Source: Chloroflexota bacterium
GTDB taxonomy: Bacteria; Chloroflexota; Dehalococcoidia; Lucifugimonadales; UBA1127
NCBI GenBank assembly: GCA_026713825.1
Contig: JAPONS010000049.1
Span: 1-64,000 of the forward strand
DNA length: 64,000 nucleotides
Direction: 5' to 3'
A program made the translations under genes and the position numbers. A model generated the notes under the pieces. The model worked only from the letters and a program-made list of their open reading frames with translations. It did not search any database and was not told where the DNA came from. Below, piece after piece: positions 2,433 through 12,241 of the stretch (its first letter is position 1; each line of letters begins with the position of its first letter).

Positions 2433-3194
2433 TTACCCCTTGACCTCCGCCGTAATCCTCACGATTTCCGCAAACTCCTCCGCCCGCAGGCTCGCCCCGC
2501 CGACGAGTCCGCCGTGGATGCACTCCTGCTCGACGAAGCCGCGCACCGACTCCGCGGTCACGCTGCCGCCGTACAGCAGCGGCGTCGCCGAGGCCGCCGA
2601 GGCCCCGTACGTGTCGTCGAGCACACGTTGGATGACGCCGCCCATGATGTCGGCCGCCAGGTCCGGCGTCGCGGGCACCCCCGTGCCGATGGCCCACACC
2701 GGCTCGTACGCCACGATGAGCGCCCCCGGAGTCTCAACGCCGTCCAGCGCCTTCACGAGCTGCCGCTCGACGACGGCCTCAGCCGCGCCGGCCTCGCGCT
2801 GCGCCAGCGTCTCCCCGACGCAGATGATGGGCGTTAGTCCCGCCTTGAGTGCCGCTTCCACCTTCAGGTTCACGCTCTCGTCCGTCTCGCCGTACAGCGC
2901 GCGCCGCTCCGAGTGGCCGATGATGACGTGCGTGCACAGCTCCGCGACCATGCCCGGCGAAACCTCGCCCGTGAACGCGCCCTTCTCATGCTGGCTCACG
3001 TTCTGCGCCCCAACGGCGATGCTCGACCCGGTCACCACGTCGCGCACCAGCGCAAGGTACGGGAAGGGCGGGCACAGCACCCGGTCAACGCCCTCCATGT
3101 GCCCAATGCTCTCGCGCAACTCGGACGCAAGCGCCTTGGCCTCCGCCACGGAGGTATTCATCTTCCAGTTGCCCGCAACAACGGCCCGCGCCAT
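2433..3194 (-). CDS. tpiA: Triosephosphate isomerase
   Basis: It interconverts dihydroxyacetone phosphate and glyceraldehyde-3-phosphate. The active-site segments are present: NWKMN near the N-terminus (Lys), IIGHSERR (His) and the YEPVWAIGTG loop (Glu), followed by the phosphate-binding YGGSV. The start is the ATG at 3194 because an AAAGGAGC Shine-Dalgarno lies just upstream and the protein then begins MARAVVAGNWKMN as in the family. The frame is open further upstream but lacks homology there. It follows apgM by 14 bases and pgk before that, forming a triose-phosphate glycolysis operon. Confidence 0.96.
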   Translation of the reverse strand: MARAVVAGNWKMNTSVAEAKALASELRESIGHMEGVDRVLCPPFPYLALVRDVVTGSSIAVGAQNVSQHEKGAFTGEVSPGMVAELCTHVIIGHSERRALYGETDESVNLKVEAALKAGLTPIICVGETLAQREAGAAEAVVERQLVKALDGVETPGALIVAYEPVWAIGTGVPATPDLAADIMGGVIQRVLDDTYGASAASATPLLYGGSVTAESVRGFVEQECIHGGLVGGASLRAEEFAEIVRITAEVKG

Positions 3195-3208
3195 GTTGCT
3201 CCTTTCCC

Positions 3209-4414
3209 CTACGGCCCGAACTTCACCAGCTTGTCCGCGTGCGCCAGCGCCTGCATCATGATGTGCTCCGCCGGGAACCGCCCCAGCGAGCCGCCACCGA
3301 ACGCGCGCTCGTCGAAGCTGCTCACTCCCTCGCCCAGCGTCCACTTGGAGTGCAACAGGAACGGCACCGGGTGCCACGAGTGCGCCGCCATGATCGCGGG
3401 CGTGGCGTGGTCTCCGGCCACCATGAAGACGTTCGGCTCCATGTCCAACAGCTCCGGGATAAACCGGTCAAGCGCCTCCAGCGTCTCCACCTTCGCGTCG
3501 AAGTCGCCGTCCTCGCCCGCGGCGTCGGCGGGCTTGTAGTGCAGGTAGAAGAAATCGTGCTCGTCCCAGCGCTCCCGCAGCGTCGCCACCTCGTCGGCAA
3601 AAGTCCCGCCCGTCGGAATGACCTTCATGCCGAGCAGGCTCGCGAGCCCCCGGTACATCGGGTACGCGGCGATGGCCGCCGGGTCGAGCAGGTAGCGGTC
3701 CACCATCGACGGCAGGTGCGGCAGCAGCGAGAACCCTCGCAGCGTGAGCATGTTCGCCTTGGGCTGCTCCGCCAGCATGCTGCGCGCCTCGCGGATGAAG
3801 TGGTTGACGGCGTTGGCCGTCGCCGCAGCCTCCGCGATGATCGCCTCCGCGTCCAGCGGCCTGGCGCCTACGCGCTGCGGGTCAGTCTCCGCCACCTGGT
3901 CGCTCAGCCCCTCGCCCGCGAGCTTAAGCACGAAGCGGTAGTCCTTCACCGGGTACACCGACGCCTGCACCCCCGGCACGTCGATGCTGTCGAGCATCTC
4001 GACGAGAGGCGCGCTCTCCTCGGACGAGATGCGTCCCGCGCGCCGGTCGACGATCGTGCCGTCCTCGCCGACGGTGCAGAAGTTGCCGCGCGCCGCGACC
4101 TCGCCCGGCGCGACGGGCACGCCGATGCCCAGCGCCTCCAGCACGCCCCGGCCAATGAGGTACTTCACCGGGTCGTAGCCGAAGAGCCCCAGGTGGCCCG
4201 GCCCGCTGCCCGGCGCGACGCCCGGCAGCACCGGCGTCGTCAGCCCGCACGCGCTCACGCCCGCCAGCTTGTCGAGGTTAGGCGTCGAGGCCGTCTCAAG
4301 CTCGGACTTGCGCGTGTCCGGGTGCGGCAGCCCGCCCAGGCCGTCCGCCACCAGCATGACGATCTTGGACGGCGACTTGCTGACTATCTCCGCCAGCGCG
4401 GGAAAGTCGATCAT
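3209..4414 (-). CDS. apgM: Cofactor-independent phosphoglycerate mutase, ApgM type
   Basis: It interconverts 3- and 2-phosphoglycerate without 2,3-bisphosphoglycerate. The alkaline-phosphatase-superfamily start is clear (IVMLVADGLGG, with the metal-binding Asp), followed by TASTPNLDKLA and GSGPGHLGLFGYDP, as in archaeal-type iPGM. Further metal-site segments (DEHDFFYLHYK and VAGDHATP) appear towards the C-terminus. The 401-residue length fits ApgM rather than the longer GpmI. It starts 10 bases after the pgk stop, which suggests one transcript and matched expression of the two enzymes. Confidence 0.93.
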   Translation of the reverse strand: MIDFPALAEIVSKSPSKIVMLVADGLGGLPHPDTRKSELETASTPNLDKLAGVSACGLTTPVLPGVAPGSGPGHLGLFGYDPVKYLIGRGVLEALGIGVPVAPGEVAARGNFCTVGEDGTIVDRRAGRISSEESAPLVEMLDSIDVPGVQASVYPVKDYRFVLKLAGEGLSDQVAETDPQRVGARPLDAEAIIAEAAATANAVNHFIREARSMLAEQPKANMLTLRGFSLLPHLPSMVDRYLLDPAAIAAYPMYRGLASLLGMKVIPTGGTFADEVATLRERWDEHDFFYLHYKPADAAGEDGDFDAKVETLEALDRFIPELLDMEPNVFMVAGDHATPAIMAAHSWHPVPFLLHSKWTLGEGVSSFDERAFGGGSLGRFPAEHIMMQALAHADKLVKFGP

Positions 4415-4424
4415 GGCGGCTCCT

Positions 4425-5615
4425 TTACGCTTCCTTGTCGCGGAGGGCCGCGACGCCGGGCAACACCTTGCCCTCGAAGAACTCCAGCGACGCGCCCCCG
4501 CCGGTCGATACGTGGGTCATGTCCTCCGCGAGTCCAAGCTCGCCTACGGCCTCTGCGGTGGACCCTCCGCCGACAATGGTAACAGCATTCTCCAGCGAAG
4601 CCACAGCCTGACCGACGGCCCGCGTGCCGTGCGAGAACGCCTGCCACTCGAAGACGCCCATCGGCCCGTTCCACAGCACGGTGCCGCACGGCCGTAGCGC
4701 CTCCGTGAATTCCCAAACCGCGCTCGGGCCGACGTCCATGATGCGCCAGCCGTCCGGGATCGCTTCGGCCGCCACCACCAGCGTCGCCGCGTCCGCGCTG
4801 AAGGCGTCGGCCACCACAAGGTCCGGCGGCAGGACGAGCTTGACGCCCTGCTTCCCGCACCGCTCGATGGTCTCCCGCGCAAAGTCGACGCGCTCCTCCT
4901 CCAGCAGCGAGTCGCCGACGCCATGGCCCATCGCCTTGATGAACGTCGCCGCCATGCCCCCTCCGATGACCAGCACGTCGACGCTGTCCAGCAGCGTCTC
5001 CAGCACCGCGATCTTGTCCGATACCTTCGCCCCGCCCATAACGGCGGCCAGCGGGCGCCTCGGATTCTCCAGCACGCTGCCGAGCATCGTGATCTCGCGC
5101 TCCATGAGAAAGCCGCTCACGGCGGGCAGGTAGTCGGCCACGCCCGCCGTCGACGCGTGCGCCCGGTGCGCCGTGCCGAAGGCGTCGTTCACGTACAAAT
5201 CAGCCAGTCGAGCAAGCTGCTGCGCGAACTCCGGGTCGTTCTTCTCCTCGCCTGGGTGGAAGCGCAGGTTCTCCAGCAGCAGCACCTCGCCCGGCTCCAT
5301 CGCCGCGACGGCAGCCTCCACCTCGATGCCCACGCACTCCGTCACGTAGTTGACGGGCGCGTCCAGCACAGCCTCCAGCCCCACCGCGATGGGCTCCAAC
5401 CGCGAGCCCTCGTCAACCTTCCCGTTCGGGCGTCCCAGGTGCGAGCACAGGATGACGCGTGCGTCGCGCTTGCGGAGGTAGTTGATCGTCGGCAGAGCCG
5501 CGCGGATGCGGTTGTCGTCGCTGATGCGCCCGTCCTCCATCGGCACGTTGAAGTCCACGCGCACCAGGACGCGGAGCCCGCGCACGTCGACGTCTTGCAC
5601 AGTTTGCTTTGGCAT
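4425..5615 (-). CDS. pgk: Phosphoglycerate kinase
   Basis: It transfers phosphate between 1,3-bisphosphoglycerate and ADP. Family motifs run in order: VRVDFNVPMEDGRI, HLGRPNG, the LLENLRF/HPGEE block, GGAKVSDK and the C-terminal GGGSTAEAV nucleotide/phosphate loop. The start at 5615 (MPKQTVQDVDV) gives a 396-residue protein of normal length; the longer upstream frame is out-of-family sequence. It begins 8 bases after the polyprenyl synthetase-like gene and is followed by apgM and tpiA. Confidence 0.96.
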   Translation of the reverse strand: MPKQTVQDVDVRGLRVLVRVDFNVPMEDGRISDDNRIRAALPTINYLRKRDARVILCSHLGRPNGKVDEGSRLEPIAVGLEAVLDAPVNYVTECVGIEVEAAVAAMEPGEVLLLENLRFHPGEEKNDPEFAQQLARLADLYVNDAFGTAHRAHASTAGVADYLPAVSGFLMEREITMLGSVLENPRRPLAAVMGGAKVSDKIAVLETLLDSVDVLVIGGGMAATFIKAMGHGVGDSLLEEERVDFARETIERCGKQGVKLVLPPDLVVADAFSADAATLVVAAEAIPDGWRIMDVGPSAVWEFTEALRPCGTVLWNGPMGVFEWQAFSHGTRAVGQAVASLENAVTIVGGGSTAEAVGELGLAEDMTHVSTGGGASLEFFEGKVLPGVAALRDKEA

Positions 5616-5623
5616 GGCTTTCC

Positions 5624-6631
5624 TCAGGATGCGGGATTCAGGTCTGCTGTCAGGTACTCGGCCAGTGCGATAAGGTCGGCCTGCCGCTCCGGTGCGATGC
5701 CCGCACGGCCAAGGCCATCCGCGAACGCGGTCCGCGCCGCCAGCGCGGCGTCGAGGGCGCCTTGCCGTGCCCCCGCCTCGTCGAGCAGCTCGGCGAGCCG
5801 CGCCGCGTCCTGCGGCCCGTGCGTCCGCGCCATCAAAAGCGTGCCGATCTCGCGCTTTACAGCAACCGGCGCGCTCTCGATTGCCAGCACGACGGGAAAG
5901 CTCTTGCGCACGACGGGGTTCGGAGCCCCCTCGCCGCCGCTCCATAGCTGCCGGATGTCCTCCTGCAGTCGCAGCGCGACGCCGAGGCTGCGTCCCGCCT
6001 CACGGCACGCCTCCTGCGCCACCGCATCCGCTCCCGCCGCCAGCGCGCCAAGCTGTGCCGCGCAGCCGAGCACCGCCCCCGTCTGCCGCTCGGCCATCGC
6101 GAGATACGCTTGCTTCGTGGCTGTAGGTTGTAGTTGCAGCGACAGGTCCTGCTGCTGCCCCTCGAACAGGTCCAGCGCGGCGTCGTCCATGACCATCGCC
6201 GATTCCAGCACCCGCTCCGGTTCCACGCCCTCCGCGTGCAGCAGCGTGAGCCGCGCGACCATGTGCAGCGCGTCGCCGACGTTGATGGCCTGCGCCGGCC
6301 CCCAGATCCACCAGCCGCTCGGCCGGTTGCCCTGCTCCGGCGCCCCCGATTGGATGTCCTCGTGGACGCGCGTAAATTCGTGCAGCAGTTCGACGGCAGT
6401 AGCGGACGCCAACGCGGCCGACGCATCGCCGGCAAGGGCCTCGCAGACGCCGAGGCACAGCGCGGCGCGCGGCCGCTCCGGCGCGAGCGACTGCACCATC
6501 CCCTGCTCGTCCACCCAGCCGAGCTGGTACTCCATCATGCGGTAGATCTGGTCCGCGCGGCTCTCGACCGCGTTCCGAAGCGCGGCTTCCACTGCTGCGG
6601 CGTGTCTGGTGATCAGGTCGGGCGTGGTCAT
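5624..6631 (-). CDS. Polyprenyl synthetase family protein with degenerate Asp-rich motifs
   Basis: The fold is that of trans-isoprenyl diphosphate synthases. WGPAQAINVGDAL (about 109-122), the EGQQQDL segment (157-163) and the T.K..YL......TGAV helix are conserved. However, the first Asp-rich motif, normally DDxxD followed by RRG.PT, reads HEDIQSGAPEQGNRPS (90-105). The second, normally QxxDDxxD, reads LQEDIRQLW (222-230). Both metal-binding motifs are thus eroded, and the Arg pair that binds diphosphate is gone. It may be a non-catalytic subunit, an altered terpene enzyme or a regulator. Its start overlaps the tsaC stop in an ATGA, so it is translationally coupled within the operon. Confidence 0.8.
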   Translation of the reverse strand: MTTPDLITRHAAAVEAALRNAVESRADQIYRMMEYQLGWVDEQGMVQSLAPERPRAALCLGVCEALAGDASAALASATAVELLHEFTRVHEDIQSGAPEQGNRPSGWWIWGPAQAINVGDALHMVARLTLLHAEGVEPERVLESAMVMDDAALDLFEGQQQDLSLQLQPTATKQAYLAMAERQTGAVLGCAAQLGALAAGADAVAQEACREAGRSLGVALRLQEDIRQLWSGGEGAPNPVVRKSFPVVLAIESAPVAVKREIGTLLMARTHGPQDAARLAELLDEAGARQGALDAALAARTAFADGLGRAGIAPERQADLIALAEYLTADLNPAS

Positions 6632-7278
6632 GCGCTCGCCTCCGCCGGCCGTTCCCTAGCCACAGGCGCGCCCAAGACTCGCTCGATTTCCTCCTGCGAC
6701 ACTGCGCCCAGCCGCAGGATGCGAGGCTGCTCCGTAGTTACGTCCAGCACGGTTGACGACCTCCCCGCAGGCGAGGGCCCCGAGTCCAGCACGATGTCCA
6801 CCGCCTCGCCGAGCGCCTCGCGGACGCCTGCTGCCGTGCGCGGCTCCGGTCCGCCGCTCCGGTTGGCGCTCGTGCCCGTGATTGGGCGGCCCAAGCCCTC
6901 TGCAAGCGCGCGTGGCACAGGGTGGTCGGGCAGCCGAACGGCCACCTTCCATCCTCGCGCCGTCACCAGCGGCGGCACCGCCTCAGACACGGGCAATACC
7001 AGCGTCAGCCCGCCCGGCCAGAATGCCTCGGCCAGCCGCAGCGCCGCGTCCGGCACGTCGGCGGCCACCATCGAGATCTGCTCCGCGTCCGAGATGAGCA
7101 GCGGCAGCGGCATGCCCTGCGGCCGCCCCTTCGCTTCGAACACGCGCTCGACGGCGGCCTCGTTCAGCGCGTCCGCGCCGAGCCCGTACAGTGTGTCCGT
7201 CGGGTACGCGACCAGCCCGCCGCCCCGCAGCGTCTCCACGGCGGCGGCTATGTCGGTTGTAGTTGAGCGTGACGTCAT
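6628..7278 (-). CDS. tsaC: Threonylcarbamoyl-AMP synthase (TsaC/Sua5/YrdC)
   Basis: It makes threonylcarbamoyl-AMP from Thr, bicarbonate and ATP for the t6A37 modification of tRNA. YPTDTLYGLGADA, the KGRP..MPL motif and the TSANRSGGPEP loop (S-x-N) are hallmarks. The length (216 residues) fits TsaC rather than the longer Sua5. I chose the ATG at 7278. A TTG at 7332 is in frame, but a TATACT -10 box lies between the two, so the shorter start fits transcription. It is the first gene of the operon leading to miaA. Confidence 0.92.
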   Translation of the reverse strand: MTSRSTTTDIAAAVETLRGGGLVAYPTDTLYGLGADALNEAAVERVFEAKGRPQGMPLPLLISDAEQISMVAADVPDAALRLAEAFWPGGLTLVLPVSEAVPPLVTARGWKVAVRLPDHPVPRALAEGLGRPITGTSANRSGGPEPRTAAGVREALGEAVDIVLDSGPSPAGRSSTVLDVTTEQPRILRLGAVSQEEIERVLGAPVARERPAEASA

Positions 7279-7312
7279 GAAGCCTGCTTCCGTATCTGAT
7301 TCCGGCCCTCCG

Positions 7313-7318
7313 AGTATA
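7313..7318 (-). promoter_or_regulatory. -10 box (TATACT) of the tsaC-miaA operon
   Basis: TATACT on the minus strand lies about 35 bases upstream of the tsaC ATG. A weak -35 (TGGCAT) sits about 18 bases further upstream. Similar TATACT boxes precede other genes here (for example at 29472, 52739, 57299 and 58613). Confidence 0.5.
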
Positions 7319-7814
7319 GCATTTCCATCCAACTAAAATGCCAGCGCCGCCGCCCTCTTCCCTTACCCTGCCACAATTCCTCGCGCACAAGCCCCGCCCA
7401 CGCTACGCTAAGACCATGTTCTTTGGGTCAAGCACAGCATGGGACATCACATGATGAGTGAAAATTGCACAAATATGGGCTCGACTTCAGCCGAAGGAGC
7501 CCCGTTCTCACCAAAAGGACGCCCGCATGTACCAATCGAGTCATATCTGAAATCGCCATTTTCGTATCTGACTCATCCCGCAAAGGTAAATAGGCAACGA
7601 CTCGAATCGAATCCAATGGTGGAGTCACGGGCCCGCTCAAGGGTGACTTGGCGTTGAACATCGATGGTGCGCAAGCCGCTCCAAACTCGCCGCAAACGCG
7701 CTTCCACACAGCGCCCCTTATCGCGGAAAATGGTGGGGTAGCGCGTAGACGGAGAAAGGCGGGCGGTGCTACGCTTGCCCCACACTCCGCTACGATTTCC
7801 GCTAAGGGGGTTGT
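7319..7814. other. Intergenic region between divergent tsaC and guaA
   Basis: About 500 bases without a convincing gene; open frames of 72 and 88 codons on the two strands have no recognisable family and no good start. It holds an imperfect 37-base palindrome (7538-7574), with GAGTCA and TGACTC at the ends and GAAA/TTTC inside. A possible extended -10 for guaA (TGCTACGCT, 7767-7775) follows a TAGACG at 18-base spacing. I see no purine riboswitch fold. Confidence 0.5.
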
Positions 7815-11648: not shown

Positions 11649-11713
11649 AGCCTACCTGGAGAGATCCTCTTCAAGCGAGTTTGTGCGAGTGGTAATCCGA
11701 GGGGTATGGAGTG

Positions 11714-12241
11714 ATGGAGAGCCGCACAACTGACAATGACATCATTCACCTGCTCCGAGTCAGGAGCAACTCAGCGCCTTCTAGTATTGATCCACTTTAC
11801 GCAATGTGCGGTAAAGGTGGGAAATTGGACCGCGCCGAAACGATTGAAGGAGGAATAGTTGAGAGCAAGCTCAGTTGGCCATTCAAGCCACTTTTCCTCA
11901 CTGGAGACTTGGCGCAAGTCACTTGCGAACGTTGTATCACATTGAAGGATGAGTACCAAGCTGAATTCAGGAAGCATGAGATTGCTCAAGGCTTGCGATG
12001 TGCCAGTTGCGACCACAGCAACAGCCTGCATATTGAACAAGAGGGGCCAAAACACTATGGTCAGAAGTCTAGGTTTTCATGCCGAATACCCAATTGCTCT
12101 TGCCAAGACTTCGCCGATGCACGTCCCGGGCTGTACAAGGAGAGTTGGATTGACGGTGCCGAGATGATTGTTGGTGGTTTCGTGAAGGCTGTAGTAGTTG
12201 TTTGGGTTGCGACAGACATCATTGGGAGGATTGTTGACTAG
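11714..12241 (+). CDS. AT-rich orphan protein with Cys pairs and a C-terminal hydrophobic helix
   Basis: I do not recognise a family. The 175-residue product has a CERC pair, a CASC pair and a CRIPNCSC cluster that could form one or two zinc sites. It ends in a hydrophobic segment (IVGGFVKAVVVVWVATDIIG) that could anchor it in the membrane. ATG at 11714 is favoured over the adjacent GTG. Base composition and codon choice are visibly more AT-rich than the purine genes on both sides, as is the intergenic DNA around it (about 11650-12398). It is probably a recent insertion between purD and purE. Confidence 0.6.
   Translation: MESRTTDNDIIHLLRVRSNSAPSSIDPLYAMCGKGGKLDRAETIEGGIVESKLSWPFKPLFLTGDLAQVTCERCITLKDEYQAEFRKHEIAQGLRCASCDHSNSLHIEQEGPKHYGQKSRFSCRIPNCSCQDFADARPGLYKESWIDGAEMIVGGFVKAVVVVWVATDIIGRIVD

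Follow-up and report, generated by a model that had tools for sequence, protein, structure and literature searches.

The 64,000-nucleotide stretch of Chloroflexota DNA analysed here (the window) contains a gene whose product resembles a polyprenyl synthetase and from which, according to an earlier note on the sequence, both aspartate-rich motifs have been lost. This raises the question of whether such a protein can still elongate prenyl chains and, if it cannot, what the gene is kept for. The features of the gene and of the operon-like run in which it lies are collected in Table 1; after pgk, the run consists of apgM, tpiA, an open reading frame (ORF) of 125 aa and miaA. That ORF (1980-2357) and one of 176 aa located elsewhere in the window (11711-12241) gave no NCBIfam match at E ≤ 0.001, and the former, which lies between tpiA and miaA in the window, has similar counterparts in the same-genus loci L035, L049 and L050.

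Table 1. Position of the degenerate polyprenyl synthase gene, of its sequence motifs and of the neighbouring genes in the window.
Feature	Position	Strand	Description
Degenerate polyprenyl synthase gene	5624..6631	(-)	335 aa, ATG start, ORF intact
Motif 1, EDIQS	6347..6361	(-)	Residues 91-95, replaces DDxxD
Subfamily signature, SGWWIWGPAQAINVGD	6272..6319	(-)	Residues 105-120; W107, W108, G111, P112, Q114, I116, N117 and G119 (near-)invariant in the order members read
Motif 2, EDIRQ	5948..5962	(-)	Residues 224-228, replaces canonical DDxLG
VRK	5903..5911	(-)	Residues 241-243, at the position of the subfamily (LN)KKK; K243 in 98%; residue 241 is K in 93%, V here
R260-G263-R269 stretch	5822..5854	(-)	Conserved in the degenerate subfamily, without conservation in canonical homologues
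sua5/tsaC-type L-threonylcarbamoyladenylate synthase	6628..7332	(-)	Overlap of 4 nt between its stop and the start of the degenerate gene
pgk, phosphoglycerate kinase	4425..5615	(-)	8 nt downstream of the degenerate gene
apgM, phosphoglycerate mutase	3209..4414	(-)	
tpiA, triosephosphate isomerase	2433..3197	(-)	Start inferred
miaA	1023..1961	(-)	Final gene of the operon-like run

The window protein belongs to the polyprenyl synthetase family both by profile and by its all-alpha fold. It matches PF00348 (polyprenyl_synt) with 83.4 bits against a cut-off of 27 (E = 1.9e-23), and no other Pfam family is matched at E ≤ 1. An AlphaFold2 model built on four sequences (pLDDT 70.3, pTM 0.77) was compared with the polyprenyl synthetase of Streptomyces coelicolor (PDB ID: 3nf2), giving a TM score of 0.82 (Foldseek) and a Z score of 31.3 with an rmsd of 3.2 over 313 residues (VIA-align); the model is of low confidence (pLDDT below 50) at residues 21-51 and 92-119, and hence over the greater part of motif 1 and its following loop, so that it serves for the fold and not for the geometry of the pocket. 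This is the closest solved structure by sequence as well as by fold, and the stretch GPAQAI.VGDAL is common to both proteins, but 3nf2 has DDLMD, RR and the second DD. Judging from the NCBIfam scores, the window protein is of the GGPPS type, with 157.1 bits for GGPPsyn_IdsB (curated cut-off 475) and 37.6 bits for the octaprenyl synthase model. Its best NCBIfam match is f2_encap_cargo4, with 186.8 bits. An encapsulin cargo was nevertheless rejected: this score is far below the cut-off of 450, canonical paralogues match the same model (L001, discussed below, likewise scores below both cut-offs, with 250.3 bits for GGPPsyn_IdsB and 331.1 for f2_encap_cargo4), and no family 2B shell was found, as NF041163 gave no match in G000 (96% complete) and nine weak matches, none above cut-off, in 14 control genomes, which provide no positive control. 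A subunit of the HexA/HepS type is unsupported as well, PF00348 being the only match, while HexA and HepS belong to another sequence family.

The loss of both aspartate-rich motifs on a preserved fold was confirmed, with the refinement that the second Asp of each motif (D92 and D225) is retained. Missing are the first Asp of both motifs and the Asp in the fifth position of motif 1. Of the RRG arginines, also reported as missing, the first is indeed absent, Q100 occupying its site in canonical relatives (RR). At the IPP site, Lys 52 is gone (E52), and R55 and H84 are retained. Of what marks a catalytic trans-prenyl diphosphate synthase, the window protein thus has neither DDxxD, nor the first Asp of the second motif, nor the complete IPP-binding set GK..R/H/RR. 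Since ligands of both Mg and IPP are lost, ordinary chain-elongation catalysis has very likely been lost too, a conclusion which is well supported at the level of the sequence.

Homologue matches were found in all 147 genomes of the window's order (Chloroflexota, Dehalococcoidia), its own included. Six canonical residues were scored, which we take to be three Mg-binding Asp and the Lys, Arg and His that bind IPP (the role of RR is assumed in the same way). Among 91 order members, which include a few near-identical pairs, 84 keep only zero to two of the six and 31 keep none, whereas all six are found in 72 of the 72 canonical homologues, a set comprising 27 order paralogues chosen by profile together with 17 class and 28 phylum loci chosen by origin, partly assigned by hand after reading of the motifs, and with class loci from the top of the listed matches rather than taken at random. 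The degeneracy is therefore real and no chance effect. One degenerate sequence from another order (L139) was placed in neither set, and four partial or divergent sequences (L194, L195, L198 and L201) and three duplicates (L209, L216 and L217) were dropped. The three Asp are kept in 35, 21 and 11 of the 91 members, and the Lys, Arg and His in 4 of 88, 10 of 91 and 15 of 91, respectively. All three Mg ligands are retained in L086, L097 and L088 only, and L076 keeps three of the six residues. Close relatives with a canonical DDxxD, which would refute the reading according to the earlier note, are encountered only in part: the same-genus L008 (55% identical to the window protein) does have DDIQD, but there the first Asp of motif 2 is gone, as are the Lys, Arg and His, and a single one of the 91 order members read, L088, keeps all six residues. 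Outside the order, 35 of 40 further class loci keep all six, whereas in the other five the first Asp of motif 2 is replaced by N. In these (L238, L239, L241, L248 and L262) the erosion is milder, motif 1 being intact; L238 also has N at residue 84.

Among the degenerate members, no single residue has taken over from the first Asp of each motif; A, N, K, G, H, E, T, S and still others are found in its place. This is unlike a re-tuned metal site, and argues against the possibility that the scaffold has acquired a new catalytic activity, as a prenyltransferase or cyclase which would use other ligands or another acceptor without the classical DDxxD pairs. The strong constraint on subfamily-specific residues, including the new acidic D149 (96%), would agree with such an activity, and the prenyltransferase Ord1, which presumably uses an acceptor other than IPP, is among the structural matches (judged by title only); overall, we consider a new activity quite improbable.

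In an alignment of 31 members, the subfamily signature reads WWVWGPAQAINAGDG, LNKKK and KRELG..YFKRV. Conservation across the order is 95% for W108, 100% for P112, Q114, I116, N117 and G119, 96% for R127, 91% for R260, 95% for G263 and 98% for R269. Parts of this signature are also found in canonical enzymes: L129 has WWIWGPAQGIN and NKKK, and since GPAQAI is present in the canonical 3nf2, it is no proof of a new surface. The intact paralogues of the order differ at positions 114 (K in 51%), 117 (V or I in 74%) and 120 (N in 77%), while the degenerate copies keep QAIN.GD, which we assume to be the start of the dimer-interface helix. These changes in the paralogue fit a specialised hetero-interface, without being proof of one. 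The conserved positions could also belong to a stand-alone protein whose retained pocket binds a prenyl diphosphate, or a different phosphate ligand, but does not turn it over; such a protein would act as a sensor, carrier or regulator, perhaps of the co-transcribed enzymes. In its favour, the subfamily retains Lys at the canonical RKK site (K243 in 98%, K241 in 93%), D92 (91%) and D225 (87%), it has newly conserved aromatic and arginine positions, and the gene is tightly spaced in the window, with its 4-nt overlap with sua5 and 8-nt gap to pgk. Position 241 is however V in the window protein itself, and the spacing to sua5, pgk and miaA is no evidence of a new regulatory link, given that the neighbourhood is older than the loss of catalysis (see below). 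We regard a binding protein of this kind as rather unlikely.

The intact reading frame had been taken in the earlier note as a sign of selection, and the window gene is indeed under purifying selection: dN/dS is 0.17 against a 94%-identical orthologue (simple pairwise count) and 0.10 for the G003/G004 pair, whose dS of 1.7 is near saturation. A pseudogene was rejected on these values. In the tree described below, the minimum number of changes at the three Asp columns is 9, 15 and 8, so that erosion must have occurred repeatedly. Such lineage-dependent erosion of the metal ligands would be expected of a relaxed, decaying gene without function, as would the twelve genomes which have no full window-type gene, but it is hard to reconcile decay with dN/dS values of 0.10-0.17, with a locus position kept across the order, with near-invariant residues outside the motifs, and with the full-length L196 being kept in the 1.3-Mb genome G055 despite the loss of both motifs. 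Decay therefore appears scarcely credible.

Four PF00348 matches are present in the window's assembly (2.64 Mb in 114 contigs): the window gene, L001, L002 and L004. The catalytically complete paralogue which the earlier note suggested looking for is L001, which keeps all six residues (DDIQD, the second DD and the remaining canonical residues) and shares 33% identity with the window protein over 262 alignment columns. L002 carries DDTVD and is of the long-chain type; L002 (contig C37) and L004 (contig C55) are contig-end pieces, and probably derive from a single long-chain polyprenyl synthase gene, each carrying one end of it on its side of a contig break. The presence of such a synthase raises the possibility that the window protein is a non-catalytic partner of it instead of the GGPPS-type paralogue, and heteromeric long-chain synthases have been described from bacteria (HexA/HexB and HepS/HepT; PMC7839719). 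The window protein is however of the GGPPS type by the scores given above (157.1 bits for IdsB against 37.6 for the octaprenyl synthase), and the alignment of its family with the intact paralogues extends over 338 columns, so a long-chain partnership is very doubtful.

In the stretch L221:6389-9170, L001 is next but one to a gene of the squalene/phytoene synthase family. The two are separated by a UPF0047 gene, and a flavin amine-oxidase family gene is nearby. Among ten additional long-flanked loci of intact paralogues, seven (L223, L224, L226-L229 and L232) have a homologue of this squalene/phytoene synthase within approximately 7 kb; none was found near the other three (L225, L231 and L233), nor in any of 11 intact-paralogue loci with shorter flanks. 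L230, which is part of the same comparison, is a window-type locus and not an intact paralogue.

A catalytically complete paralogue is present elsewhere in most genomes of the order. With the degenerate profile (E ≤ 1e-40), 120 of the 147 genomes have at least two matches, 22 have one and five have none, counts for which, as for those with the canonical profile, not every match was read individually, and in which the two matches of G043 are pieces aligned to separate stretches of the profile, perhaps from a single gene. Two matches are seen in all fourteen genomes assembled into one or two contigs (G002, G008, G010, G014, G018, G037, G044, G069, G070, G087, G105, G127, G129 and G141). When the canonical profile is used, 129 of the 147 genomes (manual count) have as their best match, at E ≤ 1e-95, a gene that is not of the window type, and the intact copy was read in three further genomes (G016, G021 and G055). 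Both copies are found in the small genomes G021 (1.5 Mb) and G055: the window-type gene of the latter, L196, has kept LWWKWGPAQAINAGD and LNKKK, and that of the former, L198, is a partial match with DE..G at motif 1. The 22 genomes with one match comprise twelve with the intact type only, nine with the window type only, and G085 with a fragment; among the twelve, G135 has a window-type fragment, and G001 (same genus as the window, 91% complete) has the intact copy without a full window-type gene. Because these genomes are incomplete (15 of the 22 are below 90% and none is above 93%), many of the misses may be assembly gaps, though not necessarily all of them.

A telling case is G052 (90% complete), where no intact paralogue was detected and the window-type gene is L088, with all six residues (G052:C5:11766-12767; its translation holds X from ambiguous or masked bases). 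Its family-mate G017, in which the canonical profile gives a second match, has no intact copy by the degenerate profile, and a window-type gene which keeps three residues. In G024 and G015 (both 91% complete), by contrast, the degenerate copy is present and the intact one was not detected. The families searched contain two genomes for G052 and one for G024, too few to correlate the absence of the intact paralogue with a catalytic window-type gene. As the Mg ligands are fully retained in three of the 91 members, and the whole set of six residues in L088, part of the degenerate clade may still be catalytic.

A tree built without the motif columns groups the degenerate proteins in a single clade (70 rows, SH-aLRT 99), which answers the call in the earlier note for a phylogeny of similarly degenerate homologues. 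The clade takes in L139 from another order, as well as L086, L097 and L088, in which the three metal Asp are kept, and its sister is L129 (another order), which is catalytically complete (SH-aLRT 94). The outgroup consisted of sequences from other Chloroflexota classes (28 of 28 canonical, 18 used after removal of near-duplicates); this is a quick tree with SH-aLRT support only, in which the outgroup does not lie on one side of any branch and four rows are misplaced. L139/L219 (G173) is a degenerate synthase with EDMQE at a sua5-X-pgk locus, for which transfer and a deeper loss are both possible origins.

The position of the gene is conserved as well. Of the 70 distinct flanked loci of the order (73 rows minus three duplicates), 69 have pgk downstream, at a distance of 3.5 kb in L077, and 66 have sua5 upstream. 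Where one of these neighbours is missing, five times in all, the locus is at a contig end in three cases, the others being L074 and L085. The neighbours of the window gene that were searched for, tpiA aside, are absent from all ten loci around intact order paralogues. Outside the order, 9 of 17 canonical class loci have pgk within their short flanks, and in three long-flanked loci (L218, L220 and L222) the relative order is sua5-X-pgk-apgM-miaA, with a catalytically complete enzyme as X. The arrangement is tight in L218, while L220 and L222 have other DNA between X and its neighbours. The canonical GGPPS of these loci (L129, L132 and L130, respectively) share both gene order and family with the window protein and, unlike it, have kept the six catalytic residues. 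Because other orders hold a complete synthase in the same gene order, the window gene descends, without change of place, from a regular gene of the GGPPS type, and the gene neighbourhood is older than the loss of catalysis. The earlier note had also proposed a link to DMAPP through miaA, which ends the run. This was not upheld: the neighbourhood is inherited, and the proximity of miaA therefore says nothing about DMAPP.

The suggestion of a non-catalytic partner, made in the earlier note as one of two options, has become the leading reading in light of the selection on the gene, of L001 and of the single clade, although the pairing itself is only inferred. Under this proposal, for which our confidence is evenly balanced, the window protein would act as a subunit with no catalysis of its own, dimerising with the intact paralogue and stabilising or tuning the L001-type enzyme. 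It is favoured because the scaffold is retained and the intact paralogue is co-retained; a homologue without the Asp motifs and an intact homologous candidate partner are found in the same genome. The retained dimer scaffold would allow the window protein to pair with the intact paralogue (less likely with the long-chain synthase), and pairing would stabilise the intact enzyme and set product length or activity, as in plant GPPS small subunits. Against this, the window-type gene and the intact paralogue are not co-localised (none of the ten paralogue loci), co-occurrence is expected of two core genes even without any interaction, and the intact copy occurs without a full window-type gene in twelve genomes, the reverse being the case in nine.

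Prenyl-synthase subunits without catalysis have precedents in plants and among the two-component long-chain synthases. In eukaryotic CoQ synthesis, PDSS2 is a paralogue with degenerate aspartate motifs that is paired to the catalytic PDSS1; this is a eukaryotic long-chain enzyme, and we liken it to the window protein by its general description only. The mint GPPS small subunit has no DDXXD and is non-catalytic (PMC7839719). Plant small subunits share with the window protein the trans-prenyl-synthase fold, the absence of DDxxD and, beside them, an intact homologous large subunit, but the same article gives them approximately 15% identity to other enzymes, compared with 33% between the window protein and its paralogue, for which the partnership is a candidate one. 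The two are presumably of separate origin. HexA/HexB and HepS/HepT are bacterial two-component synthases, like the window protein in the domain of their hosts; HexB is the component with both Asp motifs, and control of chain length may fall to HexA (PMC7839719). The window protein differs from HexA and HepS in being a PF00348 match.

Tentatively, a broader reading can be put forward, which we see as possible at best: at the base of this Chloroflexota order, a housekeeping GGPPS would have turned, without leaving its locus, into a non-enzymatic protein serving isoprenoid supply as a regulator or ligand sensor, with a conserved surface of its own (WW.WGPAQAIN, NKKK, KR.LG.....R), kept even in streamlined members, and distinct from all known small subunits. 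No description of this Chloroflexota subfamily was found in the open-licence literature searched. The step from enzyme to non-enzyme can be traced residue by residue through the intermediates L129, L088 and L076, L129 being catalytically complete yet carrying part of the new signature, and L088 being a six-residue member inside the degenerate clade. This makes it a bacterial case in which the catalytic counterpart is still found in the same neighbourhood in sister orders, and labelling this core gene of the whole order a polyprenyl synthetase is probably misleading.
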